Shown here: positions 548 to 63,640 of the stretch, one piece after another | Numbering within the stretch: the first letter of the stretch is position 1 | How the letters are laid out: each line of letters opens with the position of its first letter | Assembly: GCA_009746045.1 (NCBI GenBank) | Contig: RPFO01000667.1 | Span: forward strand, 2,221,380-2,285,379 | Direction: 5' to 3' | From: Mesostigma viride | Taxonomy: Eukaryota; Streptophyta; Mesostigmatophyceae; Mesostigmatales; Mesostigmataceae | Length of the DNA: 64,000 bases | Notes under the pieces: model-generated | Seen by the model: the letters and a program-made list of their open reading frames with translations, nothing else | Told to the model about the DNA's origin: nothing | The model's database searches: none | Program-made: the position numbers and the translations under genes

Positions 548-16258
<15,711 letters not shown>

Positions 16259-20545: not shown

Positions 20546-23201
20546 TATCAATTAATTAATCAATTAAGGGGACTCGGCGCGGCGAATATTTTCCGCGCCA
20601 AAAAAATTCTGCGGTACCCCTCCGTACCGTGAAAAGTGGGTGCACGGTGCGCGCACCCCTTGCGGAAGTGGCCATGGCGACTGCTTTTAGACGAAACGTG
20701 ACATATCTGGCACGCGGAAAGCAGAAAAAATGCTCGATTGTTGGAGAAAATCAGTTACTGATTCTACTCTATGGTGGGATGGTTGCGATCTATAATGTCG
20801 CGGGCTTTTTTTCTTTACCATCGGCAGGGGGGGTCCGGCCTGAATTTCTGTCGGGATTAACTAATTAATTAATAGACACGTGACTGCGTCACGTGAGCAT
20901 AAGTCCTCAGTGGGAGGGGAACATGGGATGGAATGGATGGTATAAGCTATCTAGGTCCTAGTTACAGGGGTGTGGGCACCGCGGCCCGAATCGCTATGAA
21001 TGCCATACTTGGTCACACGCGGAGCCCCCACAGGCTTGGGGGTGGTCTCCTTCATCACTACTTGCCATCTATCCTTGCGCACCATCTGCCTCCATATTAC
21101 AGACAAACCAGGAGGCTGCCCGGGGGTGAGCCCGTCACGTCTAGTGTAGCACATGTCCATGCCGAGTCTATCACGAGAAGTCCACGGGTGGCGGCCCTGC
21201 CGCGCATCTGTCGGGATGAATAAAGTATAATGGATGCCTGCCGGTGTGATTGTCGATTGTTGCCAGTTTTGATGGTCGCAGGGAAAGCTAGTTTAATGAT
21301 GTTTCTAAAGCCGTGAAAATTCCCGCTGCTATCTTTACCTTTCCCGTCATTTTGCGGTAAGATAACATTAGGCCTGCGCGATGCGCGCCCGACCTCTCCA
21401 TGAAAGGGTGGCCTTTCTTGTGCGCCTCAGTGGGCACGAATAAATGCCCGTTATGGTACGTTCTTGTATTAAACGTCTTAAGCTAGCGTTTTCCTGCATT
21501 CTTAGCTCGTTGAGCGTAAGCTTTTTGCCCTCTTTCCGGCCAGATGCAGCCAGGAAGTTGCGGGTCCTGGCGCTGCATCGCTCGATTCCTGGATGTCTTT
21601 TAGAAAGTTCGTCTGTGACGTGGCTGGCTTGCTGCAGCGCGTGGCCAGCCCACAACCTGTCGGGAAGGTGTGATGCTTTTATTTCCATGCTTCTCTGACA
21701 TTTCTTTTGCTTTATAGACAGTTGTGTTCGAGGAAATTCACGCGGTCTTCCTAGCGCTCAAGCAGCGGCATCATTTTCCCCAGACACTGACGAGCTGGCA
21801 CCTGTCTCCTAAAGAAAGTGGCTCGTGCTTGTTAGAAAGGAGGCAGTGTGCATTTTGCGGGACACAATGCTTTGGTGGCACATGCGTCAGGTAGGTTGTT
21901 CCAATGGTCTCTTCACCTTTCCCACTGAGTAAATGATAGCCTTTGTCATGCTAACCAGAGCAGCTAGCCACAGGTTGGCTGGATAAAAAGTCAGCTTATT
22001 TTCTCTTTATATTATACTGCGTGTGTGGTCCTCCACGTGTCCGGCTTGTTGGGCATTTTGGAAGAGGGTTTTTAATGTGTTGTTGGGTGCGGGAACAACT
22101 TGGTCAGTTGTTGGCACAAAACCACACATTATTAGCCTGAGATAGGCGTTACATATGCTGCTCAGGCGTGTCGTCCTACCAGCCTTGTTGTTAAGGGTAG
22201 ACTCACAAGGCTGGCTGTGCCGATGGAGCGGTGGGGCGTATGACGCTCCAGACATCCTCCTCACACTCCGTGATCAAAGTGGGCATGTTTTTGGGTGTCT
22301 AGGGTAGCCAAACAGATGTCATTTTGGCTCAGCACTAGCTCAATTCTCTTTTAGCGTCTACCCAGGTGGCATCACAGGAAAATCAATAACTTGAGCTATG
22401 CTTGTCAGAATGAGCTCAAACTTTTGGGGTGTGTTTCCCCCTACTCAGTGAAATTTCGCATTATTATGGATGACCCCATTCGATGTGTTGATGATTTGAT
22501 TTTTTGTTTTGCTCAAAAAAGTACCCATTTTGCGGGGAAATTAATAACTCAAACAAATGTGATTATTTTGACCATGTGAATAGCCCATATTTTTTAGAAG
22601 TGGGGAGAACTTTGCAGGAGTGTATGGGCAGGTCATTTGGATAAGTGGTTCGTCTTGGGCAAAATATCTCAAAAATAGCGTCTTTTTCTATTTTTAGCTC
22701 GCCACCGGTGCGTGGTTGGGGGTAGTACCCCCAACAAGTGGTGGCATGAATGTCCAAACATCATATTTATGGTACTCAATCATCACTAGATGGTTCCCAA
22801 GTGCATTGGAACTGATATTCATCAAAGTCAGTTTTTCAGGCTTTTGGACGTGCGAGTGAATGGACTGAAGAGGACTCAGCATAATGAAATGCTACGCCAA
22901 GTGTTTATTGGAAAATCATTACCTATCATGAAGTGCATGGCCTCATGACCTTCCATGGCCGCACCGGGCCACTCAGGGCCATGCCCGGCCCTATATTATA
23001 ACTAATCAGACTAATCTGTGACTGATGATTCATTGATAAGCTGGGTATATCATTCATTAACCTGCCACTGACCATAACAAGTCGATGGGCTCGCAGACCT
23101 AAAACTTTGCCTTCATTTTGGGTCGCAAACTAAAATTTTCACCCTGTTTTTGGGTCGCAAAGTAGGGTCGTCGCGAAGTGATCTTGACCACTACGGTACA
23201 G
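20546..23201. other. No recognised gene
   Basis: A GC-rich piece (20573-20857) is flanked on both sides by AATTAATTAAT and may be a small insertion. The rest is AT-richer with scattered short reading frames and no recognisable domain. Around 21180-21240 there are weak ORFs without support. Confidence 0.4.
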
Positions 23202-23274
23202 TCATTCCCGCGTTAAGTTGTGATCGCCCCCTAAAACTTTGCGCCGCAACTTAAAGCGGGAACGCAACTTAACG
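23202..23274. repeat. Short palindromic repeat, family member 1
   Basis: It starts GTCATTCCCGCGTTAAGTTG and contains GCGCCGCAACTTAA and AACGCAACTTAACG, so it can fold on itself. A second member is at 33614-33712 and ends with the inverse of this start (19 of 20 bases). The two lie outside the HUH element complex on either side. Confidence 0.6.
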
Positions 23275-23729: not shown

Positions 23730-25177
23730 GACCTGAGAGTGAGGTATGACTAGGTTAGGCTTCACACTGGGTTCTTTGTTGCAAATGAAATAACGTTTTT
23801 ATTACCAATACTCTACCTAACTTGGCAGCTCTGTTTCAGCAATAGCTGGGCTCGATGAGAGAAAGGAGGGCTGGCCACACTTGCCACGCACCACCATGAC
23901 CAAGACAGAGTTCAAGGATCCACACAGAGCTACATCCAACGCCCTGGTGGAAACACACACTTATCCCAATGAATGCCTTACACTTACGCAATATCTTGCG
24001 TCAGCCTTACCTCGTAGCCACGCTCAGTATCTGATCCTGACGACAACCGCTTTGTCGTCCATACTGCTTCAATTACACCAAAGCTACTCCGTGGCACTCG
24101 GCTTTGGTCAGCACCAAGACCTAAAAGTACACAAATCCTAAGTCGTTGTCTGCAACGACTCCCTGTTCCGCATATGAAACATATCATCTAGCACTTTCTC
24201 TTTAGACGACAAAATCAACTAGACAACCTGGGTAGGCCAGAAATCCCAGACGACAAAATGCCCTTGTCGCAGAGCACTCCAGTGTCGACTTGCCGACCCC
24301 TGAGCTTGCCAAACAACTATATCACCAACCAAGCATGTGCGACAACTAGCTGGCCCTGACGAGAAAAGCTGCCTCGTCGCATTCACAAAAGCGGCTTGCC
24401 AGCCTGCCGAATATCAATGCCAATATTGCACGACATTATCTACCTGCAGCGGAGTTCTCGAAATCAATAACGCGCCAGCTTGCGTGCACGTGCATGTTGA
24501 CTGTTGAGCCTGCACGATCCGCATAATTGCCAGGCTGGCAGCCTAGCTCGGTCCGTGTTGTACGGTCCAGCAGCCAGTGCGTGCTGCTTGCCAGCGTTGG
24601 CACTGACCTCCTGGTGACGCATGTCAGTACCGCTGTCAACTCCCAGTGCTGCGCGTCGCGCTACGGCGCATGCGTTGCTCAGTTGCTCCCGTAAGGCCCA
24701 AATGCCAAAGGCGTAACAACTCGCACACGCGCAATGCCTAGCTGCCTCGCCTCGTCCCCCGGGCCGGCCGCGTGGCGGCCCCGCGTAAAGCCAATACTCG
24801 TGCGAATCGGAACGGCGCGCGACAGTCTTTGCCGCCCTTCTGTGGTGCATTCGGCATGATGATGGTGGTAATTATTTCCTGCAAGATGTCTCAATTACAT
24901 TACAGACCCTGCATCAGTGGTCGTGGATTCTTATGTACCGCAGCCCGCAGGCTGCAAAACTGAATCTGTAAGGTTGCATTCGCGCTTTTCACCTAATATT
25001 AAGCTTTTTGTTGTATTCACCTTTGCCCGGACTTACTTTTACCCATACTAGGATGTGCCGAACTCTGAAACTCTGAAATTCTCAAAATTCTCACTTTTCA
25101 TCATTAAAGTCATATATACCATATACAGAGATATACACTTAAAATTTCTCAAAGAGACAACCAGCGAGGCCAGAAAT

Positions 25178-26323
25178 TTATGTGTGAAACGCTATGTCAG
25201 AGTCGGAGTCGGATGACAACATGATATCAGGGTCATCCTTATTCCGTTCGTCACGCAGGACTTTGTCAAGGAGTTGCTCATCTGTTAATTCGTCATCACC
25301 ACGAGGGGGCTTTCGCACCTCTTCGATGATGGCATCTATGTCAAAATAGCCAGACCCTGGTGGCTCTTCTGTGCGTGCTGCACGTTCTTGGCGTTGAGCC
25401 GCGCGTGCATCAGGAAAAACTGCATCTACCTCATCTGAATCAAAGTATCGCTCACGCGGATTGAAAAGGGCCCTTTCGAGCCCACGTGCTATAGCTGACA
25501 ACGAATGTTCACCAAGTCTGGGTTCAACCATGATCTCGAATGCAGCTTGTACACGAGGATAATCAAGACCCCTACCCATCAGAAACCTAGCATCTAGAGA
25601 GTATCGGCCCGTCTTGAACATGTGGGCCATTGTTTTAATCAGGTTTGGACGCAAGCTAATACTATTGTGGTGCTTAAACCAGTACACAGCAGCACGTTCG
25701 AGCAAATTGTAGGCGGTCAAGCAGCACCGTCCCTTGAGAGTGGGGGACCCATGAAGTAAATATTCTATCCGGCCTTCTTCTTTCTCGTCCTCATCAATGC
25801 CGTGGCAATACAAGATCTGGAACCCTTCTTGCTCTTCCGACTTCAGCAAATAGCCTATCATCCCAGAATAATTCAACTTGTGGCTAGGCTTAACTTGGCG
25901 TGCCACGAGGCTTGGCTTGGTTTTGTCATGTTTCCCTTTTTCATCTATCGGTTCTCCCCACCCAAGTTCCTTCTTGAGCTTCAGTTTCACAGCATGGGCT
26001 GATGTAGCCTCAACATCGATTAGCATGTGCACGTGCTTGTGCATTTCTAGTATTCCTTCTTCCACAATTGACATGCCCTTGCCGCCATTGGCTACATGGA
26101 AGGCTTCAATCTTGCCAAGCTCATCGTCATTAAGATCACGAGCCCCCCTGAAATGGAGATGTGGAGTGTCATATTCTTTAGCGGCGTGCGCCCACGTGCG
26201 TGCTTGGGTTGACGTAATGGAATGAACTCGTCAGTTTCTTGAGCTTCTTCGTGCTGAGTTGCGGTGTTGTGTTCCTCATTGAGTGCAGCGTCCTCACGCT
26301 CTTGTAGATGTCGTCTCGCTTCT
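25178..26323 (-). pseudogene. HUH endonuclease exon, left copy, broken by 1-base deletion
   Basis: This is the mirror of the right-arm exon. The G-run after the first motif has six bases (26143-26148) instead of seven, which shifts the frame just after HISISGG. The later part reads openly for 298 codons from a Met at 26074 and includes HVH, the YLLK block and the complete C-terminal third without the four-base insertion. So each arm is intact where the other is broken. A homopolymer error in sequencing could also explain the missing G. Confidence 0.65.
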
Positions 26324-26489
26324 CTGTCATATACATTGCACATGCCAAGGAAAAATATATCGCACATTTTTAGCAAGAAGGGTGGTTAACACATTTTTAA
26401 AAAGAAGCGTTGAATAAAAGACATATTGGCGTATAATTTGGCAAGGAATTCCAATAAAAAAAATTACACAAGGAAGAGTGGCACCTTAC

Positions 26490-27118
26490 CGCCCACGTTT
26501 TATCTTGCACGTCACGTGATTGCTGAGACCACGTTGGCTCTTGGCTACGAAGGGCGGCTCGCAACAGTTGCACCTCAAATTCTCATGCTTACTTGCCCCT
26601 GCTTCACCATCGCTGTCCTCGTCATCATCCGAAACACCGGCTTCATCATCTATGAATTTTACTTTTTTAGCCCGGCGTGGAGGGGGATCCTCTTCGTCAA
26701 CCTCATCCCCTTCCTCCTCCTCTTCCCCTTCCTCTTCCCCTTCCTCCTCCTCTTCCACTTCCTCTTCCCCTTCATCCTCCTCTTCCCCATCCTCTTCCTC
26801 ATCCTCGGAGGCATCGTCTAAGATAGCATGTCGCCGGCGGCGCCGGCGCCTTGCTGCAACGTTTAAGTCAGGCACTACGTTGTCCTCCACTCTCTCCGGG
26901 TCCCGGTGTGGTGGATCCAGTGAGTCCCGTTGCTGGGGATGAACAAATAGGTCCGGCGTGGCTGTCGGTTGCTGGGCTGGCGTGGTCGTCATGGACAGGG
27001 TCGTCTTCTGGAGACGGCTCAAATGCAGGCGTTTTCTCATCGCATTCGTCAAAATTGAGGGCTCGTTTAGTCCCCTTGCCAGGCCGAGTCGACTTGCCGG
27101 CGTTTTGGTCTTGGCCAT
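26490..27118 (-). CDS. Acidic and zinc-finger exon (left copy)
   Basis: It is identical in protein to the right-arm frame, with the same apparent TAA inside a GTAAGG donor (GT at 26489-26488). The predicted intron runs to the acceptor just before 26323. Phase is conserved, as on the right. Confidence 0.55.
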
Positions 27119-27659
27119 GTTGTTTTGTGGACGTTTGTGTTGATGACGATGGGGTTACAGATGACCCACCCCCAGCAAGCTTGCCCGCTGCAGACAAAAC
27201 GGAATTCAGTAATTCGTCCTCCTCCGCCTGGGACCCCGTCAGATCCACGCTATCCACCAAAGCGCCTTTATTGATTGCGTTGGAGAGCAGGGGCCCTATT
27301 GTCTCAAGTGTGGACAGCACCTCATTTGTTGCATGTTTGACCACCCCCTCCCACAGTTGTTCCTTTTTGCCCAAGGCGACTTTCAGCCGCTCTAGCGTCT
27401 TTAGTTGGGGCTCTACGGTTGTCTCGTACGCCTTTCGCACTTTCTCCTCGCAGGCCTTTTCCTCCCTTTCCTTGAGTTCATGATACCTTGCCTTAGCAGC
27501 ATTTACATTCTTTGTTTGTACCTGTACACCTTCGTTGGCACGGTCCAGGTTAAGCTTTCTGTCTCTGATGGCGTTAGTTAAGTCGACTCGCTGCTTGTTT
27601 ATTTTTCCAACGAGGTCCTTGAAGAGGTCTTGTTGCGCCAGATTTTTCATCGCCGCCAT
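26868..27659 (-). CDS. Coiled-coil protein (left copy)
   Basis: Its protein is identical over all 263 residues to the right-arm frame. The perfect identity beside small indels elsewhere indicates a very recent duplication or gene conversion. The upstream region toward the spacer contains the same G-run array as the right arm. Confidence 0.5.
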   Translation of the reverse strand: MAAMKNLAQQDLFKDLVGKINKQRVDLTNAIRDRKLNLDRANEGVQVQTKNVNAAKARYHELKEREEKACEEKVRKAYETTVEPQLKTLERLKVALGKKEQLWEGVVKHATNEVLSTLETIGPLLSNAINKGALVDSVDLTGSQAEEDELLNSVLSAAGKLAGGGSSVTPSSSTQTSTKQHGQDQNAGKSTRPGKGTKRALNFDECDEKTPAFEPSPEDDPVHDDHASPATDSHAGPICSSPATGLTGSTTPGPGESGGQRSA

Positions 27660-28015
27660 GGTCCCGGCCGCCTTTCGTTTCTTTTTATTCCCCTTCGTTC
27701 ACACACCTATATTCGCGTGTATCCTGTCAATCACATGAATCGTGACGCGTGGCCGACCTCCTTCTGCCTTTGGTCTTCGTGCCCCGTTAGTAGCCAACCA
27801 GTCACACACGATGTAAGGTTCGTAACCGCAATCAGTTTCCAACGTGTCGGCCATTTCCATTAAATGATATCCCTGTAACCGCTATTCTGTAGATTGCAAG
27901 GTACGTGTCAAAACCTCCACCTGGACCTTACTGGGCCTGACGCCCGGAAGTGCCGAACTAATCGCCATCTACAATGTCCTAGAACTACGGTCCAATAGAT
28001 ATTCGGTTTGAAACT

Positions 28016-28275
28016 GACAACTGCGACTCCCCCCCGGTGTAACACCGTTCCCCCCATTAAGGATTCGCTGATACTCATTTGCCCTCTCACCTCTTTGGTC
28101 CATAATTGGCTAATTTCCCCGATAACACCGTTCCCCCCCCCACATAAGTGCGTTCCCCCCCTCGTTGTAACACCGTCCCCCCCCCCCCCATAAATGCGTC
28201 CCTCCCCCCGTTGTAACACCGTCCCCCCCCCCCATAAATGCGTCCCCCCCCCGTTGTAACACCGTCCCCCCACAC
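28016..28275 (-). repeat. G-run tandem array upstream of the element genes (left)
   Basis: Units of about 40-48 bases contain ACGGTGTTACAACG, a G-run of 7 to 10, ACGCATTTATG and a second G-run. The right arm has the counterpart at 29452-29700. The G-runs differ in length between arms, as expected for slippage. The location between the inner terminus and the first ORF suggests a promoter or replication region, but this is inference. Confidence 0.7.
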
Positions 28276-28586
28276 GTACAGTACTTTCAACCGCAGCTCT
28301 GCCTTTTAACCGTCGAAAGCGCAAACGATCTAGAAAGTATCCGCGATTTCAGTACATGCCGTCACCCTTGACAGTTGTCGTACAATACTACAAATTAACG
28401 CCAATAGAAATTCGCCTCCGAACATAGATCTCGATAGAGCCATGCCTCTTAATTAATCTCGGCCCCCGCCCTCTGAGAATTCGAGAACTGAGAACTCTGG
28501 AGCCAATTTTACCCCGACTTAGGACACTGGTTTTTGGAAAACTTAGCCCTGACCGGGAGAAGACAAGTCTGCGGCCTGCGGGGGCT

Positions 28587-29164
28587 GAGATTAAATAAGA
28601 GGTACCTTGAAATTAAATAAGAGGCGTGCATCTATGAATATATAGTTTTGGAGGCGAGTTTCTGTTGGCGTTAAGTCGTAGTATTGTACGATTGATAGAT
28701 TGGTAGTGCACTGGTGGTACTGCACGACGGTATTGGACGGAGTTCCCGGAATCCCGGTCTGGCAAGCGGATTTTGCATCTCACGGGTACATCTCACGGGT
28801 ACATCTCACGGGTACACGACGCGGCACGAAAATGGCTCGCAGAAAAGCTAGGAACCTAGGCGACTACCTATTTGGCGCCGCGTCGGTCGTGACGTTGTTT
28901 ACTCCGTTGGATCTGCATCTACGGCGTTCGTGGGTTGTTTCGAAACCCGGTCGATGAGATTTAACGGAGAAGTCGGGTATAAAAATGATCCTTTTCTGAC
29001 AACTACGAGAAAATGTAAAAGTCGAAAGGAATTAAACGGCTTGACATGTTGTCGGCTTGCCGTCCAATACTACAGGTTAACGCCAATCGAAACTCGCGTC
29101 CTAAAATATATTTGGATAGAGGCATGTCTCTTATTTAATTTCAAGGTACCTCTTAATTAATCTC
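28587..29164 (+). mobile_element. Non-autonomous relative with about 105-bp inverted ends, in the spacer
   Basis: It starts GAGATTAAATAAGAGGTACC and ends in the approximate inverse (GGTACCTCTTAATTAATCTC). The inverted ends extend over about 105 bases and include GGAGGCGAgTTTCTgTTGG and GTAGTATTGTACGA. The start-type terminus also occurs at the inner end of each autonomous arm. The middle shares about 350 bases with 32890-33150. It encodes nothing recognisable. Confidence 0.65.
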
Positions 29165-29451
29165 GGGCCCCGCCTCGGGCTATAAGTTTGCAAAAAAAAA
29201 GTCTGTAAGTCGGGGTAAAATTGGCTCCAGAGTTCTCAGTTCTCGAATTCTCAGAGGGCGGGGGCCGAGATTAATTAAGAGGCATGGCTCTATCGAGATC
29301 TATGTTCGGAGGCGAATTTCTATTGGCGTTAATTTGTAGTATTGTACGACAACTGTCAAGGGTGACGGCATGTACTGAAATCGCGGATACTTTCTAGATC
29401 GTTTGCGCTTTCGACGGTTAAAAGGCAGAGCTGCGGTTGAAAGTACTGTAC

Positions 29452-29700
29452 GTGTGGGGGGACGGTGTTACAACGGGGGGGGACGCATTTATGGGGGGGG
29501 GACGGTGTTACAACGGGGGGAGGGACGCATTTATGGGGGGGGGGGGACGGTGTTACAACGAGGGGGGGAACGCACTTATGTGGGGGGGGGAACGGTGAAC
29601 ATTATCGGGGAAATTAGCCAATTATGGACCAAAGAGGTGAGAGGGCAAATGAGTATCAGCGAATCCTTAATGGGGGGAACGGTGTTACACCGGGGGGGAG
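29452..29700 (+). repeat. G-run tandem array upstream of the element genes (right)
   Basis: Mirror of the left array, with several compensating length differences. A 138-codon frame spans the array in both arms and keeps the same total length despite the indels. A five-base insertion (AACAT) occurs near 29600 only here. Confidence 0.7.
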
Positions 29701-30065
29701 TCGCAGTTGTCAGTTTCAAACCGAATATCTATTGGACCGTAGTTCTAGGACATTGTAGATGGCGATTAGTTCGGCACTTCCGGGCGTCAGGCCCAGTAAG
29801 GTCCAGGTGGAGGTTTTGACACGTACCTTGCAATCTACAGAATAGCGGTTACAGGGATATCATTTAATGGAAATGGCCGACACGTTGGAAACTGATTGCG
29901 GTTACGAACCTTACATCGTGTGTGACTGGTTGGCTACTAACGGGGCACGAAGACCAAAGGCAGAAGGACCGGCCACGCGTCACGATTCATGTGATTGACA
30001 GGATACACGCGAATATAGGTGTGTGAACGAAGGGGAATAAAAAGAAACGAAAGGCGGCCGGGACC

Positions 30066-30857
30066 ATGGCGGCGATGAAAAATCTGGCGCAACAAGACCT
30101 CTTCAAGGACCTCGTTGGAAAAATAAACAAGCAGCGAGTCGACTTAACTAACGCCATCAGAGACAGAAAGCTTAACCTGGACCGTGCCAACGAAGGTGTA
30201 CAGGTACAAACAAAGAATGTAAATGCTGCTAAGGCAAGGTATCATGAACTCAAGGAAAGGGAGGAAAAGGCCTGCGAGGAGAAAGTGCGAAAGGCGTACG
30301 AGACAACCGTAGAGCCCCAACTAAAGACGCTAGAGCGGCTGAAAGTCGCCTTGGGCAAAAAGGAACAACTGTGGGAGGGGGTGGTCAAACATGCAACAAA
30401 TGAGGTGCTGTCCACACTTGAGACAATAGGGCCCCTGCTCTCCAACGCAATCAATAAAGGCGCTTTGGTGGATAGCGTGGATCTGACGGGGTCCCAGGCG
30501 GAGGAGGACGAATTACTGAATTCCGTTTTGTCTGCAGCGGGCAAGCTTGCTGGGGGTGGGTCATCTGTAACCCCATCGTCATCAACACAAACGTCCACAA
30601 AACAACATGGCCAAGACCAAAACGCCGGCAAGTCGACTCGGCCTGGCAAGGGGACTAAACGAGCCCTCAATTTTGACGAATGCGATGAGAAAACGCCTGC
30701 ATTTGAGCCGTCTCCAGAAGACGACCCTGTCCATGACGACCACGCCAGCCCAGCAACCGACAGCCACGCCGGACCTATTTGTTCATCCCCAGCAACGGGA
30801 CTCACTGGATCCACCACACCGGGACCCGGAGAGAGTGGAGGACAACGTAGTGCCTGA
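30066..30857 (+). CDS. Coiled-coil protein or N-terminal part of HUH element protein (right copy)
   Basis: The frame encodes 263 residues from a good ATG (GGGACCATGGCGGCG). Residues 1-110 are rich in Lys, Glu and Leu in heptad-like spacing, suggesting a coiled coil (ERLKVALGKKEQLWEGVVKH). Residues 160-263 are Ser/Thr/Pro-rich and probably disordered. Its last 250 bases overlap the acidic/zinc-finger frame, which has no stop from 30571 on. An intron or a frameshift in this overlap could join the two into one protein upstream of the HUH exon; I cannot place the junction. No known family is recognised. The left arm holds an identical copy (27659-26868, minus). Confidence 0.55.
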   Translation: MAAMKNLAQQDLFKDLVGKINKQRVDLTNAIRDRKLNLDRANEGVQVQTKNVNAAKARYHELKEREEKACEEKVRKAYETTVEPQLKTLERLKVALGKKEQLWEGVVKHATNEVLSTLETIGPLLSNAINKGALVDSVDLTGSQAEEDELLNSVLSAAGKLAGGGSSVTPSSSTQTSTKQHGQDQNAGKSTRPGKGTKRALNFDECDEKTPAFEPSPEDDPVHDDHASPATDSHAGPICSSPATGLTGSTTPGPGESGGQRSA

Positions 30858-31235
30858 CTTAAACGTTGCAGCAAGGCGCCGGCGCCGCCGGCGACATGCT
30901 ATCTTAGACGATGCCTCCGAGGATGAGGAAGAGGATGGGGAAGAGGAGGATGAAGGGGAAGAGGAAGTGGAAGAGGAGGAGGAAGGGGAAGAGGAAGGGG
31001 AAGAGGAGGAGGAAGGGGATGAGGTTGACGAAGAGGATCCCCCTCCACGCCGGGCTAAAAAAGTAAAATTCATAGATGATGAAGCCGGTGTTTCGGATGA
31101 TGACGAGGACAGCGATGGTGAAGCAGGGGCAAGTAAGCATGAGAATTTGAGGTGCAACTGTTGCGAGCCGCCCTTCGTAGCCAAGAGCCAACGTGGTCTC
31201 AGCAATCACGTGACGTGCAAGATAAAACGTGGGCG
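30607..31235 (+). CDS. Acidic and zinc-finger exon of the HUH element (right copy)
   Basis: The frame encodes a basic block (ARRRRRRRH), a long Glu/Asp run (about residues 104-142) and a C-terminal finger: CNCC, twelve or so residues, then LSNHVTCK. This resembles GLxxHxxxC-type fingers of transposon proteins. The frame appears to end at TAA (31237), but that stop lies inside a strong splice donor (GGCG/GTAAGG). Splicing from 31235 to 31402 joins it in phase to the HUH exon, giving an Arg codon at the junction. The ATG at 30607 may not be the real start, since the frame is open from 30571 and overlaps the coiled-coil frame. Confidence 0.6.
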
Positions 31236-31401
31236 GTAAGGTGCCACTCTTCCTTGTGTAATTTTTTTTATTGGAATTCCTTGCCAAATTATACGCCAAT
31301 ATGTCTTTTATTCAACGCTTCTTTTTAAAAATGTGTTAACCACCCTTCTTGCTAAAAATGTGCGATATATTTTTCCTTGGCATGTGCAATGTATATGACA
31401 G

Positions 31402-32552
31402 AGAAGCGAGACGACATCTACAAGAGCGTGAGGACGCTGCACTCAATGAGGAACACAACACCGCAACTCAGCACGAAGAAGCTCAAGAAACTGACGAGTT
31501 CATTCCATTACGTCAACCCAAGCACGCACGTGGGCGCACGCCGCTAAAGAATATGACACTCCACATCTCCATTTCAGGGGGGGCTCGTGATCTTAATGAC
31601 GATGAGCTTGGCAAGATTGAAGCCTTCCATGTAGCCAATGGCGGCAAGGGCATGTCAATTGTGGAAGAAGGAATACTAGAAATGCACAAGCACGTGCACA
31701 TGCTAATCGATGTTGAGGCTACATCAGCCCATGCTGTGAAACTGAAGCTCAAGAAGGAACTTGGGTGGGGAGAACCGATAGATGAAAAAGGGAAACATGA
31801 CAAAACCAAGCCAAGCCTCGTGGCACGCCAAGTTAAGCCTAGCCACAAGTTGAATTATTCTGGGATGATAGGCTATTTGCTGAAGTCGGAAGAGCAAGAA
31901 GGGTTCCAGATCTTGTATTGCCACGGCATTGATGAGGACGAGAAAGAAGAAGGCCGGATAGAATATTTACTTCATGGGTCCCCCACTCTCAAGGGACGGT
32001 GCTGCTTGACCGCCTACAATTTGCTCGAACGTGCTGCTGTGTACTGGTTTAAGCACCACAATAGTATTAGCTTGCGTCCAAACCTGATTAAAACAATGGC
32101 CCACATGTTCAAGACGGGCCGATACTCTCTAGATGCTAGGTTTCTGATGGGTAGGGGTCTTGATTATCCTCGTGTACCGACAAGCTGCATTCGAGATCAT
32201 GGTTGAACCCAGACTTGGTGAACATTCGTTGTCAGCTATAGCACGTGGGCTCGAAAGGGCCCTTTTCAATCCGCGTGAGCGATACTTTGATTCAGATGAG
32301 GTAGATGCAGTTTTTCCTGATGCACGCGCGGCTCAACGCCAAGAACGTGCAGCACGCACAGAAGAGCCACCAGGGTCTGGCTATTTTGACATAGATGCCA
32401 TCATCGAAGAGGTGCGAAAGCCCCCTCGTGGTGATGACGAATTAACAGATGAGCAACTCCTTGACAAAGTCCTGCGTGACGAACGGAATAAGGATGACCC
32501 TGATATCATGTTGTCATCCGACTCCGACTCTGACATAGCGTTTCACACATAA
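31402..32552 (+). pseudogene. HUH endonuclease exon, right copy, broken by 4-base insertion
   Basis: Behind the acceptor TATGACAG the exon encodes the three hallmarks of a one-tyrosine HUH nuclease: a strand MTLHISIS (motif 1), HKHVHMLIDV with the metal-binding HVH at 31691-31699 (motif 2), and GYLLKSEE with catalytic Tyr at 31874 and Lys at 31883 (YxxK, motif 3). A conserved region of about 200 residues follows, then an acidic Ser/Asp tail ending in TAA at 32550. No helicase motifs are visible. Relative to the left copy, four extra bases near 32178 put the last third out of frame. The same frame can also be opened from an ATG at 31349, but that lies inside the predicted intron. The nuclease core itself is intact here. 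Confidence 0.7.
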
Positions 32553-32759
32553 ATTTCTGGCCTCGCTGGTTGTCTCTTTGAGAAATTTTAAGTGTATATC
32601 TCTGTATATGGTATATATGACTTTAATGATTAAAAGTGAGAATTTTGAGAATTTCAGAGTTTCAGAGTTCGGCACATCCTAGTATGGGTAAAGTCGGGGT
32701 AAAATTGGCTCTTTTTTAGCAAATTTAGCAAATTAGCAAATTAGCGGAAGGCGGGGGCC

Positions 32760-33366
32760 GAGATTAATTAAGAGGTACCTTGAAATTAAATAAGACGCAC
32801 ACCTCTATCGAGATATATGTTCGGAGGCGAATTTCTATTGGCGTTAATTTGTAGTATTGTACGAAAACATGTCAAGGGTGACGGAAAGAAGGACTTATGT
32901 TCCAATTCAATTCAATGCACGACGGTATTGGACGGAGTTCCCGGTCTGGCAAGCGGATTTTGGATCTCACGTTCAGAAAAGGGCTTGGGTACACGACGCG
33001 GCGCGACGTACGTTGTAAAATGGCTCGCAGAAAAGGAACCGTGGCGACTATTTGGCGCCGCGTCGGTCTTGACGTTGTTTGCTCCGTTGGATCTGCATCT
33101 ACGGCGTTCGTGGGTTGTTTCGAAACCCGGTCGATGAGATTTTACGGAGAAGTAGGGTATATAAGTGATCTTTATTGTTTTCTTGATATAAGTGATCCTT
33201 TTTTGACCAAGCGGTGAACTGAATGTAGAAGTCGGAATAAATTATACGGTCTGACACGTTGTCGTACTATACTACAACTTAACGCCAATAGAAATTCGCC
33301 TCCAAAAATATATCTGGATAGAGGCGTGCCTCTTATTTAATTTCAAGGTACCTCTTATTTAATCTC
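32760..33366 (+). mobile_element. Non-autonomous relative, downstream copy
   Basis: It has the same inverted ends and core as the spacer copy and lies directly after the right arm, behind an AGTCGGGG motif at 32692 and before another at 33384. A short frame ends in LDLHLRRSWVVSKPGR in both copies; this may reflect DNA rather than protein conservation. Confidence 0.65.
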
Positions 33367-33613
33367 GGGCGGCGCCCTCCGGGAGTCGGGGTAAAATTGG
33401 TTAATTTGTAAACTGGGGACAACCTAGTCAGTATAAAATTAGCAACCTAAGTCGAAACCATTTTTTCCTCCTGTTAAGCGGCCAGCTGAGGCGGGGAAAT
33501 TTGCGCGCTAGTGGAGCTTGCGTATTTTGCCGCCTAAAATCACGTAGCGGGTCCGGACTATGCAAAAAATGGCCTCCTGCGCGGCCAAAAATGGCCTGAC
33601 ACCTACAAATTGA

Positions 33614-33712
33614 GTCATTACCGCGTTAAGTTGCGGTCGCCCCCCAAATCTCGGCGCCGCAACTTAACGCGGGAACGCAACCTTAAGAAACGCAACTTGA
33701 CGCGGGAATGAC
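33614..33712. repeat. Short palindromic repeat, family member 2
   Basis: It begins GTCATTACCGCGTTAAGTTG and ends CAACTTGACGCGGGAATGAC, imperfect inverted ends of 20 bases, about 99 bases in all. Related to 23202-23274. It looks like a miniature inverted-repeat element. Confidence 0.6.
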
Positions 33713-37516: not shown

Positions 37517-39755
37517 GATCGTTTTGCGTGCCCACGGGGGGCGCACCTGGACGCCTCACCCGTTACCCTGGCGGAGAGGAACCGGCTGTTGCAGGGGCAT
37601 GTGCAGCAGCTGCTGCGCGAGGGGTACGAGGTCATGCCCGGCTGGAAAACAGGGATGAAGCTGGCGCAACGGCGGATATGGACATTTTCGGACCCCATGT
37701 GGCCCAAGCCGGCGCACTGCAAGGGGGTGTGGGGGGACACCACGGCCATCATCAATGACTGCATAACGATCAATAACGGGCGGTGCGTGTGGGCTCTTCT
37801 AGCTCATCTATGTAACATTAATGCTTGATCTGAATTCGTTGCAGTACACAACCTGATACTCTCCTATAGCCAGCACGCTGCCATGGAATGAATACACATG
37901 CAGTTAAAGATGCCATACTAAGATGTTCGTTGAACCCCAAATGGTGATGTCATTGGTATAACGGTATGGCAATGGTTATTGATGTCCAATAGTAGCGCCT
38001 GGGTGGCATCATGGCATCATGACCAAGTAGGCACGTGCGTGCGCAATGCCAGGGTGCCTATTCTGTTATCGCGTCCTCACAAGAATTTTTTTGCTTTGTG
38101 ACTTGGGTCGGGGGTGGGGTCGGAGGTGGGGGGGGAAAGCTATTAAGTAAGTGCACAGACCATCCTAGTAGGCAGGCGCGTCCGGCCCCGCTTCCCTCAA
38201 GGCACAAAATGTCACTATAGCGATGCTGGAATAGTAATAACTCAAGCTACGACACCGGTCCTTGCACCCCTGTTAAGTTCCCTGGTGGCCGGACCTGTCC
38301 AATCTCCCCCCCCCACACACACAGTGCTTTGTTCGTCATCACGAAGACCTCCAGCCTTGGAACTTTCAAGTGTAATCTTCCTGCGGCAGTTGGTATGGCG
38401 TTTAGTTTTTCCTGTCAGGCCCGGTTGCCAATTCATATTTTGCCTACCACGTACACACCTACTTATCTCCCTATCAGCTTTTATGCATGCATACTCCCAT
38501 GCCTGCTTAGCTCCCAAACAGCCTCACATGTTTGCTTGCCAACTATCAGCTCAGACACAGCCTTGCTTACCCCCCTATCAGCAGTTCCTGCAGTTACTCA
38601 CTGTCATCCCTACCCTCATGATTCTTCCCTAGCCTTCCTGACCCTGCGGACACCCGGTGGACACCCGGCGCCTCTCCCCTGCTGTGCACTGGCTTAAATC
38701 TGTCTCCCATCGTCCAACCACCATGTCTCCCCCCATGCTGCCGGCTCCCATGTCATATGCTTGTGTCCTGCAGCATGATGGTCAACCACAAGTACCGCTA
38801 CCTTTTCCGGCTCATCCCCAAGGCTGCCAGCACGGCCATTCTCGAGAACACGGGCAGGTTGCTGCCAGGGACCCAGGTGGTGCGCTGGGCGGTCGACAGC
38901 CCTGAGCGCAGCGGCGGCAGCTGTCGCCGCAAGCTGGAGCCCAGCAACTTCAATGGGGCGTACCACCCCTATGTTTCGAGCCAGCCCTACCTGCTGTTGA
39001 CCGGCGTGCGGGAGCCCTTGGCGCGGTTCATATCTGCGTATAACCACTGGGCAGGAAAAAGCCAGCGAAAGATAAACGCAAGGGTGGAAGACTTCATGGG
39101 CACCCTGAAGAGTGCGTTTGAGTGCGCAAACTATGCGTGGGGCTCACGCTCTTGGTCGCTCAAGAACTTTGTCCATTTTGTGCCGGCGGTGGGCTACTTC
39201 CTGCTGCCCTATTTATCACGTGCAGGGGACAACGAAACGGTGCCCTATATAGACAAGCTTTTCCTAATGGAGGACCTGGGCGATCTTATACCTTATATGG
39301 AACAAATCAGGGCTGGCTCCATCACAGCAGGCCCCGGCGGCAAGAAGCAGTTGGTACTGCCCAAAAAACAGACGAAAACGGCTAACGTGAAACCCCATGA
39401 ACCGTTGACGGCGCAGCTGATGAAGGCGTTATCGGAGCGGCCGGACATGCTGCGCATGTTTTGCCGGGCATTCATGCAGGACTACCTCTGCTTCGACTAC
39501 CCACTCCCGGACGAGTGTCAGGACATGCTCCCTGGTTGGAATCGTACTTCTTTACTAGCATACCTACCGGTAGTATCACCTTCATTTAACTTGACGGAAA
39601 GACTGGAAAGGGCCTACAAGGACGGGCCTTGGTCCAAACTTGACCAAGGCAAGATGAACAGGCTGCTTCTGGTCATTATTGGGCTATTGATGGCCCTAGT
39701 TTGCTGGCAAAAGTACCAATTGAATAGAGGAGACTTCTTGGATGAGAGTAAGTAA
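37517..39755 (+). CDS. Carbohydrate-type sulfotransferase, at least two exons
   Basis: Exons 37517-37782 and 38774-39755 join in phase 2 (CG + C, an Arg codon) across a GT-AG intron. The second exon has the two PAPS-binding elements of membrane sulfotransferases: LFRLIPKAASTAILE (5'-phosphosulfate loop) and VREPLARFISAYNH (3'-phosphate site). The family moves sulfate from PAPS to sugars in the Golgi, here plausibly wall glycans. Possible N-glycosylation sites are NRTS and NLTE. A hydrophobic segment (VIIGLLMALVCW) lies near the C-terminus, which is unusual because these enzymes normally have an N-terminal anchor. The first exon can be extended openly to 37349, or further exons lie upstream; the true start is not resolved. 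The stop overlaps a perfect donor (see findings). Confidence 0.65.
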
Positions 39756-51916: not shown

Positions 51917-52105
51917 CGTTCATTCATTCATTCATTCATTCATTCATTCATTCATTCATTCATTCATTCATTCATTCATTCATTCATTCATTCATTCATT
52001 CATTCATTCATTCATTCATTCATTCATTCATTCATTCATTCATTCATTCATTCATTCATTCATTCATTCATTCATTCATTCATTCATTCATTCATGCATT
52101 CATTA
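51917..52105. repeat. (TTCA)n microsatellite, about 45 copies
   Basis: Pure ATTC/TTCA units over nearly 190 bases with one variant near the end. It separates the minus-strand ORF1 remnant from the plus-strand reverse transcriptase remnant. Confidence 0.97.
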
Positions 52106-56553: not shown

Positions 56554-56560
56554 TTAAGCA

Positions 56561-57999
56561 CTAGATGGGGATGTAATCCTCATCCGAGCTGTCCTCTACT
56601 GTAATGGCAGACGAGGCGGTAGTGTAGCGGCTATCCTCAGGACCAATAACCTCCACCTGCGGACTTCTACCCTGGCTAGCAACGGGCCGCGGGGCCCGTG
56701 GGGAGAAAACAGGAGCATACCCCTCGGGGAGGTGCTTATCGCAGATGGCAGCCCATTTCTCCTTGTCAATCATGCGGGCGCGGAGTACGGATAGTCCCAG
56801 AAGCCCTGCATCTTCAAGCAGTTGTGTCACATAGGTCCGGGTCGCGCCGCGCCGCGGTGCCCGGCGCGCGCAAGTTTGCCAGTGGGTTGCGATGGGACAA
56901 GGGGACCCTGCCATAGGAGGAGGTGTCTACCTGGTTGGCCCGTCTTAAGCCCCGGGCCGGCAGGGCCCACATCGGTATTCACCTGGTCTGTGCGGGCAAG
57001 ATGGCCGGCAAAGAGGAGGCGGCGGTGTCGGATGGTATGGGTGACAAGAGGGAGCTCGCAGTAGAGCTCGGCCCGGGTGCGGCGTTCTTGGTAGCGGACG
57101 CCGAGGATATGACGGAGCATTCGAGTGACGGTGCCGTCAAGCTGCCTGCTCAGCGCCTGGTCCAGGGTCCACGCCTCGCAGCCATAAAGGAGGATGCTGA
57201 GGACAAGGGCCTTGAACAGAATGCGCTTGCGTCGCTCACTCAGGTAGCGACAGGTCCAGAACCTGTCGAGGCGGCGGAGGGCCGCCCAGGCCTGGCCAAT
57301 GCGGGTGTTGATGTCGTCGGCCGTGGAGGGAAGCCAGCTGCCAAGGAGCTTGAAGCGAGTCGCCGGGGGGACGGGGCTGCCGTCTAGCAAGAGGAGGGTG
57401 GGTGGGGCTATCCCAGCAGGGAAGCCGATGGCCATGACCTCCGTTTTCTTGCTGATCATAAGCCCCACCGCCCGCGCTTCCAGTGATAAGCTGTCTAGCC
57501 ACAGTTGGGCTGACTCTGGGGTTTCCACGAGTGTCGTGTCATCAGCGTAGATCAGATCGCTCAGGCGGTAGGGTGGGTCAACCCCGCCGTAGCTGGCGTA
57601 CTCCGTGACCTCGATCCCCGGCGGGCGCCCCTCCACCCGGGCGAAGCGGGCTTGTGCACGCCGCATAATATAGTCCACCATAATGATGAATAGATATGGG
57701 GAGAGCACACAGCCCTGCCACACCCCGGTGTGCAGGGGAAACGCCGGAGTGACGCCGTCGGCGGTACGGACCTGGGCTTGGGACCCTTCATAGAACTGGC
57801 GGATGATCTCAACGATGTACGATGGGACACGGAACAGGTGAAGGACCACCCACAGGGCGTCCCATATAACCGTATCGAATGCCTTGGTGTAATCCACGAA
57901 GATCAATAGCAATGGCAAGAGGCCGGGGGCCAGGCGGCCCACTTCCTCGATCAGGCGGCGCGCGGTAATAGTGACCATAACACAATTGCGACCCTGCAC
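56561..57999 (-). pseudogene. LINE reverse transcriptase (ORF2, C-terminal two thirds)
   Basis: The main frame (57999-56827, 390 codons) contains LLIFVDYTKAFDTVIWDAL, GVWQGCVLSPYLFIIMVDYI, SDLIYADDTTLVETPESAQL (catalytic YADD), RFKLLGSWLPSTADDINTR, ILLYGCEAWTLDQALSRQL and RRLLFAGHLARTDQV. A frameshift near 56900 moves to a second frame with RDPDLCD-type sequence and RARMIDKEKWAAICDKHLPE, ending SSDEDYIPI and TAG at 56561. These are reverse transcriptase motifs in the right order for a non-LTR element. The N-terminal endonuclease part is lacking, so the copy is 5' truncated and inactive. Confidence 0.8.
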
Positions 58000-58539
58000 G
58001 TGTGACCCTGCACGGCCAACAAATGTTACTATGTACTATGCTCTATGCTATTCATATCATGAGCATAATGGCAGTGACTTGCCACCTGCCACACTTAGTT
58101 AGTAGATCGACATTGCAATACATCCTTCAAGTACATTTGTATATTGTGGACATGCAAACTATTGACCATCTAACACCGGTCTCTTTTATTACAATGCATT
58201 ATTGACAGCATAACACATGGTTGAATGGTATAATGCACCCAGAGCTCTGGCTGGCAGCCTTGATGCAGTTCGATGTCATAGCACTATAGATGGCAGCTTC
58301 GCTGCACAATGACAACAAGTGCATGCATGCCATGAATCCCTGAAAAATAAAATCATTGGCAATGGATCCAGAATTGACCATACAATATGACTGCCAAGGA
58401 CGTGCCTGAAAAAGTAAAAAATAAGTGGCAAGTAGCCCATAAAACACACTGTCAACTGCATGCCAGGGCATGCCTGAGAAAAGTATATGGCAAACTGCCC
58501 ATAAAACACTGTCAACTGCAGAGGATATGCTTGGAAAGG

Positions 58540-62170: not shown

Positions 62171-62463
62171 TAATATTGCGTAATAGCTTCGGGAAAATAT
62201 ATCAGCGTGTGCGTCTTAGAAAACGAAGCGATCGTGGTAGTCACGTCAAAGTTTGGAGCCCAAACGTGAAAGTTATGGGCGCTGCCGTCAGCCATGGCTA
62301 TCTCGTGGCTCGTGGCTGCACGCAAATGATTGTGCGAAGTGTGAATAAAAAGTGCTTCAATAATTCTGGCATGCGCTGGTTGTCATTAATTTTTATAATT
62401 ACTAACTACTACTATAATTCTGATTTGGCACTCCGCAAATAGTGAAAACCTACTATAATGTTG

Positions 62464-62710
62464 CTAGCCAGGGTAGAAGTCCGCAGGTGGAGGTTATTGG
62501 TCCTGAGGATAGCCGCTACACTACCGCCTCGTCTGCCATTACAGTAGAGGACAGCTCGGATGAGGATTACATCCCCATCTAGTGCGGTTGGGGGATGATG
62601 CAGACGATATAATTGTTTAAACTTTTGTGTAATTATTTTTCTAATGAGATTAGCATAGTACTCCGTGGCATGCCTTTGCGCATGACACGCAAGTACTTAC
62701 TTACTTACTA
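62464..62710 (+). pseudogene. LINE 3' end: last codons of ORF2, 3' UTR and ACTT tail
   Basis: It encodes GRSPQVEVIGPEDSRYTTAS and ends SSDEDYIPI with TAG at 62580, then 3' sequence and TACTTACT tail. It is nearly the same as the minus-strand copy at 56560-56700 plus 54700-54829, but without the TTAA insertion, and therefore serves as the empty site. Confidence 0.75.
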
Positions 62711-62879
62711 CTATAATGAATGCTATAATGAAACTACTATAATGAATAATAATGCAAATATCAAGGAAACTCCACAAGGGTAGGCTAATTAACTTTTTTC
62801 CAAGGTTGATGCCAGCACGTAACCCATTTTTACTAAAGAGACAACTATGATGATGCGCCGCCTCAACAGGTTCTCAGAC

Positions 62880-63640
62880 ATGTCGCTACCTGAGTGAGCG
62901 GCGCAAGCACGTTCTGTTTAAGGCCCTTGTCCTCAGCATCCTCCTTTATGGCTGCGAGGCGTGGATCGACCCTGGACGGCCAGGCGCTGAGCAAGCAGCT
63001 TGACGGCACGGTCACTCGAATTATGCTCCGTCACATCCTCGGCATCCGCTACCAAGAGTGCTGCACCCGGGCCGAGCTCTATTGCGAGCTCCCTCTTGTC
63101 ACTCATACCATCGATCCGACAACGCCGCCTCCAGAGCTTTGCCGGCCATCTTGCCCGCACAGACCAGCTAGGTGAATACTGATGTGGGCCCTGCGGGCAG
63201 GCTTAGGACTAGACAACCAGGTAGACACCTTCTCCTATGGCAGGGTTCTCTTGTCCCGTCGCAACCCACTGGCAAACTTCATGCGCGCGCCCTGCACCGA
63301 CGCGCGGCGTGACCCGGACCTATGTGACGCAATTCCTTGAGGATGCAGGGCTTGTGGCATTATTTGTACTCCGCGCCCGCATGATAGAAAAGGACAAATG
63401 GGCTGCTGTCTGCGATAAGCACCTTCTTGAGGCCGGGGCATGCTCCTATAGGTGTTTTATCCCCACGGGCCCCGCCGCCCATGCATTGCTAGAATGCAGG
63501 GTAGAAGTCTGCAGGTGGAGGTTGTTGCCCCTGAGGATAGCCGCTATAGCGTATAGGCGGTGTATACACTACCGCCTCGTCTGCCATTACAGTTGAGGAA
63601 AAATCAGATGAGGATTATATCCCCCTCCGGTGACTATATT
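62880..63640 (+). pseudogene. LINE reverse transcriptase C-terminal fragment
   Basis: Broken frames encode CRYLSERRKHVLFKALVLSI, LLYGCEAW, QLDGTVTRIMLRHILGIRYQ and later VTRTYVTQFLEDAGLVALFV with RARMIEKDKWAAVCDKHL. The order matches the copy at 56561-57999. Many small indels; inactive. Confidence 0.7.

Follow-up and report, generated by a model that had tools for sequence, protein, structure and literature searches.

Does a pair of near-identical transposons facing each other record a special mode of replication, or two insertions at a favoured target? The question is raised by a locus of the streptophyte alga Mesostigma viride, found in a stretch of 64,000 nucleotides (GenBank assembly GCA_009746045.1, contig RPFO01000667.1, positions 2,221,380 to 2,285,379 of the forward strand; called the window here, and all coordinates refer to it). 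Two inverted copies of an element encoding a HUH endonuclease, the left arm (25038-28521, minus strand) and the right arm (29206-32692, plus strand), make up a 7.6-kb palindrome. The initial annotation saw in the pair an inverted dimer, of the sort expected as an intermediate in rolling-hairpin replication or aberrant rolling-circle transposition. We propose here that the locus is very probably a nest of insertions in one resident copy of a short foldback element, M, and that the spacer between the arms, which is the core of M, reads inverted. Two ordinary Replitron insertions in M plus a small inversion largely explain what is seen.

Results

A resident M element encloses the palindrome

The palindrome is real: an inverted-repeat search of the window lists 100% arm-arm complementarity (rounded) in the five longest gap-free blocks, which range from 277 to 1613 bp. 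Aligned with each other, the arms differ by two substitutions and seven small insertions or deletions (indels), four of the latter in G runs; a second comparison counts the same, and a further six mismatches and one gap sit in the spacer edge, outside the arms. This likeness is far beyond chance, and the near-perfect head-to-head palindrome first described is thereby borne out. The coordinates given above delimit the maximal shared block, and since this block includes the flanking TAAGTC, the elements themselves (25036-28515, and from 29212 to about 32690) are a little shorter. A spacer of 684 bases (28522-29205) separates the arms.

The spacer represents the core of a distinct mobile family, M, a foldback element of about 0.74 kb that resembles miniature inverted-repeat transposable elements (MITEs) and has foldback arms of about 113 bp, 84% alike. 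A genome search with the spacer gave at least 137 matches, with the best 40 of 1025 candidates scored; at least 41 matches, the window's own included, span no fewer than 579 bases, with an identity of 92-100%. Eight M copies free of arms were picked from the end-to-end matches, and all eight read AACAGGAGGAAAAAATGG...GACTTA-GGACTTTGG...core...GTCTG-TAAGTC-C or a close variant (one base on the left in L037 and L040, on the right in L040 and L042; L036 diverges past CAAAGG). Judged by eye, core and termini are linked alike in 8/8, and a stricter pattern caught seven left and six right sides. The left site holds a single GACTTA, which is TAAGTC read on the other strand, in every one of these copies, and the right site a single TAAGTC in seven and GAAGTC in L042. 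A further copy (L021) has an uninterrupted right end. The A run at the right end of M comprises 5 to 10 bases in the window and in six of the eight copies.

In the window both TAAGTC sites of M are occupied: the left arm sits in one, the right arm together with a short relative, M2, in the other. The insertions at both sites are bordered by repeats of TAAGTC or AAGTC. Read on the minus strand from 33479 down, the order is GCTT, AACAGGAGGAAAAAATGGTTTC, GACTTAGG, M2, right arm, spacer, left arm, TAAGTC, CGGGCAAAGGTGAATACAACAAAAA and GCTTAA (25004-24999); all of 25005-33475 is enclosed by one M element, whose outer edges both carry GCTT(AA). It is the arm-free copies that carry the weight of the nested reading. 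The Replitrons would lie mirror-image because the target sites in M are mirror-image, and no special replication step is needed. Two earlier assignments were abandoned: element ends drawn from the window only (a TAA duplication, M2 ending at 33391) were replaced after the genome copies had been compared, and a supposed third element starting GAAACC (L008, L009 and 33454) is the left terminus of M.

The spacer lies inverted with respect to the M termini

The linkage of core and termini is swapped on both sides in the window, opposite to the eight arm-free copies: the GTCTG side points toward the left-terminus block and the GTCC side toward the right-terminus arm. This reversed spacer is a new observation. 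A scripted flip of the segment between the arm middles restores the normal order of M. By eye, the same flip lengthens the duplication at the left arm from TAAGTC (6) to GTAAGTC (7 bp), and that around the right arm plus M2 from TAAGTC (6) to CCTAAGTC (8 bp). The junction GTCTGTAAGTC/GGGGTAAA is found at three places in the genome with at most one mismatch, the exact one only in the window; the two inexact places (GGGGCAAA) are presumably plain M ends.

The arms resemble copies elsewhere as much as each other

Over about 3.46 kb the right arm shows no substitution against L002, on another contig, one against L004, two against the left arm and 16 against L005. The two arms have no substitution in common that is theirs alone, the two of the left arm being private to it, and the shorter G run of the left arm matches L004 and not the right arm. 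Many indels among the compared copies lie in homopolymers. The arms are as alike as members of a recent burst, and nothing in them points to local copying. Tandem repeats of 45-46 bp, rich in G/C, occur near the 5' end of each arm (28123-28271 and 29456-29597) and hold indels between the arms.

Ends, copies and target sites of the arm family

The genome search with the right arm covered 439.9 Mb in 2243 contigs and gave at least 79 matches, the best 39 of 1649 candidates being scored; element ends were examined in the thirty best loci together with flanking sequence of at most 1.5 kb. Family A (the arms, L002, L004, L005 and others) starts with GGGGTAAAATTGGCTCCAG and ends with GTATGGGTAAAAG or GTCGGGGTAAAATT. 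Family B, 83-93% alike to it, has the same start, a different subterminal block and mostly the end CCTAGTCAGTAAAAA. The element length of about 3.48 kb lies inside the Replitron range of 0.9-4 kb. Terminal inverted repeats are absent and the ends differ between strands, and there is a direct terminal repeat of up to about 15 bp: the usual 5' end AGTCGGGGTAAAATT recurs as the 3' end in L006 (where 14/15 bases agree with the 5' end of the same copy) and L010 (a locus without 5' end), and in diverged form, AGTATGGGTAAAAG, in L002-L005. Inverted matches between the subterminal regions at the 5' and 3' ends were weak (p about 0.03 and 0.003, 300 shuffles) and were not used.

Among the first 30 loci, AGTC directly precedes 27 of 28 distinct 5'-end matches; these 28 include a few copies of the terminal repeat at 3' ends. 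Target duplications are clearest at L020 (TGTTATTCTAAGT), L019 (TCTTAGTC), L015, L017 and the left arm (TAAGTC), reaching from 6 bp at the left arm to at least 13 bp at L020; they are not clear at L004, L016, L022 and L024. Family B ends in CAGT plus an A run of variable length at L012-L017, L019, L020 and L024, and several M copies terminate in ACAAC plus 5 to 10 As. Such variable A runs, together with variable target duplications, do not look like the product of precise strand joining by a HUH enzyme.

Close pairs of long matches, sought by eye, comprise two head-to-tail pairs (C1801, and C1 near 1.628 Mb) and the head-to-head pair of the window. Head-to-tail tandems of a Replitron with another or with a short relative were seen at L014/L017 (C1801), L015 (C113) and L025 (C1 near 1.628 Mb), and at 3788-3815 of L025 two tandem copies have one terminal repeat in common.

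The HUH protein and its gene

There are good grounds, in domain and anatomy, to assign the arms to the Replitrons, as had been suspected for the family from the start. The Pfam family PF21859 (Replitron_HUH) matches the right-arm protein P0001 with E 2.2e-6 and 28.5 bits, equal to the cut-off of 28.5, and scores just under it for P0002 (27.8 bits, E 3.6e-6), P0003 (26.6) and P0004 (26.0); it is also the precomputed database domain of P0003 and P0004. The Pfam scan found no Replitron_HUH domain in P0005 and no helicase family up to E 1 in P0001-P0004. The motif I histidine, HxH and YLLK stand in order and unchanged in four aligned rows, two of them the window arms, and the tyrosine of YLLK is assumed to be catalytic.

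In the left arm one G is missing immediately past HUH motif I, and four additional bases stand at 32176-32179 in the right arm, so neither arm as assembled holds a single open HUH frame; outside these two indels the protein frames are identical, as stated in the initial annotation. The shorter G run also occurs in L004, the 4-base insertion in none of the four other copies compared. A public gene model, P0003 (599 residues), combines the HUH domain with an acidic stretch and a zinc-finger-like motif in one protein. Exon 1 shares 189 of 209 aligned residues with it, and the right-arm HUH residues before the insertion are identical at 259/259. The 20 differences in exon 1 beside an identical HUH part may reflect a mosaic or a relaxed acidic region. 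Of the one spliced gene first proposed, the acidic stretch, zinc-finger-like motif and HUH domain are upheld by P0003 and a fitting intron; the coiled-coil-like part is a separate frame (30066-30854), absent from P0003 and without any Pfam family above cut-off. Where this frame overlaps exon 1, codon-position G+C weakly suggests that the zinc-finger exon frame is the coding one.

Searches of 5.8 billion proteins returned two matches (threshold E 0.001), three (profile, threshold E 1) and two (HUH region, threshold E 10), about 8000 candidates being scored in the first two, and only models labelled Mesvir1 were found. No protein relative was confirmed in phage records, IMG/VR or GTDB contigs, where the IMG/VR and GTDB searches reach close relatives only. 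PHROGs gave nothing below E 0.05, and a PDB sequence search gave seven matches, all at E 0.88 or worse. The two AlphaFold models are of poor quality, with a predicted local distance difference test (pLDDT) of 37.6 and 43.3; with them, Foldseek found nothing at E 0.001 or better and IS200/605-type matches only at E about 6e-3, and VIA-align returned common alpha/beta folds such as ACT domains.

Table 1. Features of the nested locus in the window, in order of position
Feature	Coordinates	Strand	Remark
M target duplication, far side, GCTTAA	24999-25004	-	partner 33474-33479
Resident M right terminus, CGGGCAAAGGTGAATACAACAAAAA	25005-25029	-	as in L035, L037, L038, L039, L041 and L042 except for A-run length; L036 and L040 differ
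TAAGTC, 3' target duplication copy of left arm	25030-25035	-	single TAAGTC here in 7/8 arm-free M copies
Left arm, family A Replitron	25036-28515	-	5' GGGGTAAAATTGG ... GTATGGGTAAAAG 3'; HUH frame broken by 1-base G-run difference
Left-arm HUH frame downstream of 1-base difference, P0002, 350 residues	25181-26230	-	PF21859, E 3.6e-6
TAAGTC, 5' target duplication copy of left arm	28516-28521	-	now after M left-type core flank GTCC
Spacer, M core, inverted	28522-29205	+	resident M termini in - orientation
TAAGTC, 5' flank of right arm	29206-29211	+	now after M right-type core flank GTCTG
Right arm, family A Replitron	29212-32690	+	end about 32688-32691, overlaps duplication; HUH frame broken by 4-base insertion 32176-32179
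Upstream frame, 263 residues, coiled-coil-like by eye	30066-30854	+	overlaps exon 1 in another frame
Rep gene exon 1, acidic stretch and zinc-finger-like motif	30607-31235	+	alignment to P0003
Intron, 166 bases, GTAAGG...GACAG	31236-31401	+	consistent with joined model P0003
Exon 2, HUH endonuclease (LHIS, HKHVHM, YLLK), right arm	31402-32203	+	ends at stop past 4-base insertion; PF21859
AAGTC target duplication between right arm and M2	32691-32695	+	junction comparison
M2, non-autonomous relative with family B ends	32696-33445	+	head-to-tail behind right arm; 3' end ...CCTAGTCAGTATAAAATTAGCAA
CCTAAGTC, target duplication behind M2	33446-33453	+	equals flank now at left arm
Resident M left terminus, AACAGGAGGAAAAAATGGTTTC	33454-33475	-	M copy comparison
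M target duplication, near side, GCTT running into initial AA of M	33474-33479	-	partner 24999-25004

Surroundings of the nest

The nest is flanked by a 69-bp repeat (23200-23268 and 33613-33681, 88% alike), itself partly palindromic. Further away lie tandem arrays at 1989-4720 (18 bp unit), 4824-6264 (32), 9522-10432 (127), 13519-13768 (4), 14056-14571 (12) and 51919-52104 (4), a sulfotransferase-matching frame at 38622-39752 (plus strand; PF03567, E 6e-7) and a reverse-transcriptase frame at 56830-58035 (minus strand; PF00078, E 6e-17). Beside the latter are inverted repeats (56625-57276 with 62856-63546, and 56558-56683 with 62460-62585).

Discussion

Parvovirus rolling-hairpin replication yields inverted dimers, and near-identical arms lying head to head would suit an origin in one event, whether by replication (rolling-hairpin, or aberrant rolling-circle) or by local inverted duplication of one Replitron. 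Here, however, the homology ends at the element ends, both arms sit at TAAGTC target sites of M, and what joins them is neither a palindromic loop nor a terminal hairpin unit, it is the core of an independent mobile family. A single-copy origin is likewise at odds with a right arm that is nearer to L002 than to its partner and with the lack of common private substitutions. We therefore consider an inverted dimer extremely improbable and do not retain the replication intermediate suggested in the initial annotation. Palindromes of this type can also arise from chimeric reads; against a fold-back sequencing artefact stand the outer flanks, which differ from each other and represent opposite ends of a single M, an imperfect spacer and indels that differ between the arms, and its chance is virtually negligible. 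The Replitron machinery might have inverted the spacer itself, by aberrant transposition using the ends of both copies, but neither a new target site nor lost element ends are seen and ordinary recombination is simpler given the long near-identical arms; this route is very unlikely. The nest of insertions could also be correct with the inversion being an assembly choice, the inner piece joined the wrong way. The M. viride NIES-296 assembly, from which the window presumably stems, is reported to be built with Canu from PacBio RSII reads with an N50 of 11.2 kb (PMC6947507). A further account (PMC7027972) deals with a different M. viride strain and was left aside. With the reported 113-fold coverage of the NIES-296 assembly (PMC6947507) and its N50, some reads should span the 8.5-kb nest. 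Within the nested reading we hold a misjoined spacer to be possible, if doubtful, and recombination between the arms in vivo to be probably what turned it.

Several points weigh against a nest with an inverted spacer. The arms (3.48 kb, near-identical) and the high-copy spacer are both repetitive, and an assembler could produce the same picture. The comparison of M copies draws on eight of the 41 long matches. The one plus two duplication bases gained by the flip give modest support. The junction between right arm and M2 is too short to separate two insertions from the insertion of one tandem pair. No clean ranking of the copies emerges from the indel events, the right arm differing from L002 by six, from the left arm by seven, from L004 by nine and from L005 by twelve. 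Target duplications of the arm family are variable, partly supplied by the constant AGTC, and weak when taken alone: by a simple score, a target-repeat score of at least 5 was reached by 9 of 18 two-ended loci, one copy being counted twice (L012 and L023, on two contigs), and by 53 of 306 swapped-flank pairs. Finally, AGTC may be part of the element itself.

A history that accommodates the nest would begin with M, about 0.74 kb long, resident on the minus strand, both inverted repeats of which carried TAAGTC and would have offered a good target to the Replitron family. One full Replitron, the left arm, would have entered one repeat; M2 and a second full Replitron, the right arm, head-to-tail, would have entered the other, and the order of these insertions is conjectural. 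In keeping with the scheme proposed for Replitrons, the HUH protein may nick one strand at the element end (AGTC/GGGG) and join it next to AGTC, a single-stranded or circular intermediate presumably being joined at the target. Facing orientation and palindrome would then follow from the mirror-image target sites. Later, host recombination between the 3.48-kb arms may have inverted the spacer, exchanging the target duplications.

The Helitron protein carries a helicase; of the marks of Helitrons, a RepHel helicase and A/T insertion without duplication, neither was found here, where no helicase was matched and the junction is AGTC. With Replitrons (Craig 2023, PNAS), as summarized in a short review description, the arms have in common the PF21859 HUH domain, the lack of a helicase match, a direct terminal repeat, a length of 3.5 kb and, less clearly, a target duplication (PMC10741241). 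That description gives terminal repeats of 5-11 bp and target duplications of 2-8 bp, whereas here the repeat extends to about 15 bp and the duplication to at least 13 bp (L020), and the constant AGTC at the 5' junction is a further difference from it (PMC10741241). Of the three Replitron papers listed in a literature search, none concerns Mesostigma by title. The inverted spacer recalls the Galileo inversions in Drosophila, in which opposite transposon copies enclose an inverted segment and exchanged target duplications around them were read by the authors as a mark of ectopic recombination (PMC2775673). Galileo is another kind of transposon, and that study, as far as its account goes, concerns a chromosomal inversion with sequenced uninverted chromosomes and chimeric copies (PMC2775673). 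Here a 0.7-kb spacer lies between Replitrons, the inversion is read from one assembly and no uninverted allele was seen. Stacking of HUH elements has a parallel in Helitrons reported to lie beside relatives or immediately upstream of their 5' ends and read there as successive insertions, in another family with its own target rule (PMC2267711, PMC5148889).

Whether the spacer acts as an inversion cassette, flipping repeatedly in culture with Replitron nuclease nicking at the ends helping to start the exchange, is a long shot; if true, DNA inversion would be within the reach of HUH transposons in eukaryotes. The nested reading removes tempting evidence for an inverted dimer intermediate as mechanism and puts in its place a history that is legible down to single bases. 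It provides the ends, the target preference and near-identical recent copies of a Replitron family in the streptophyte alga Mesostigma. With family members stacked on one MITE target, the locus offers a natural test of recombination between inverted Replitron pairs.

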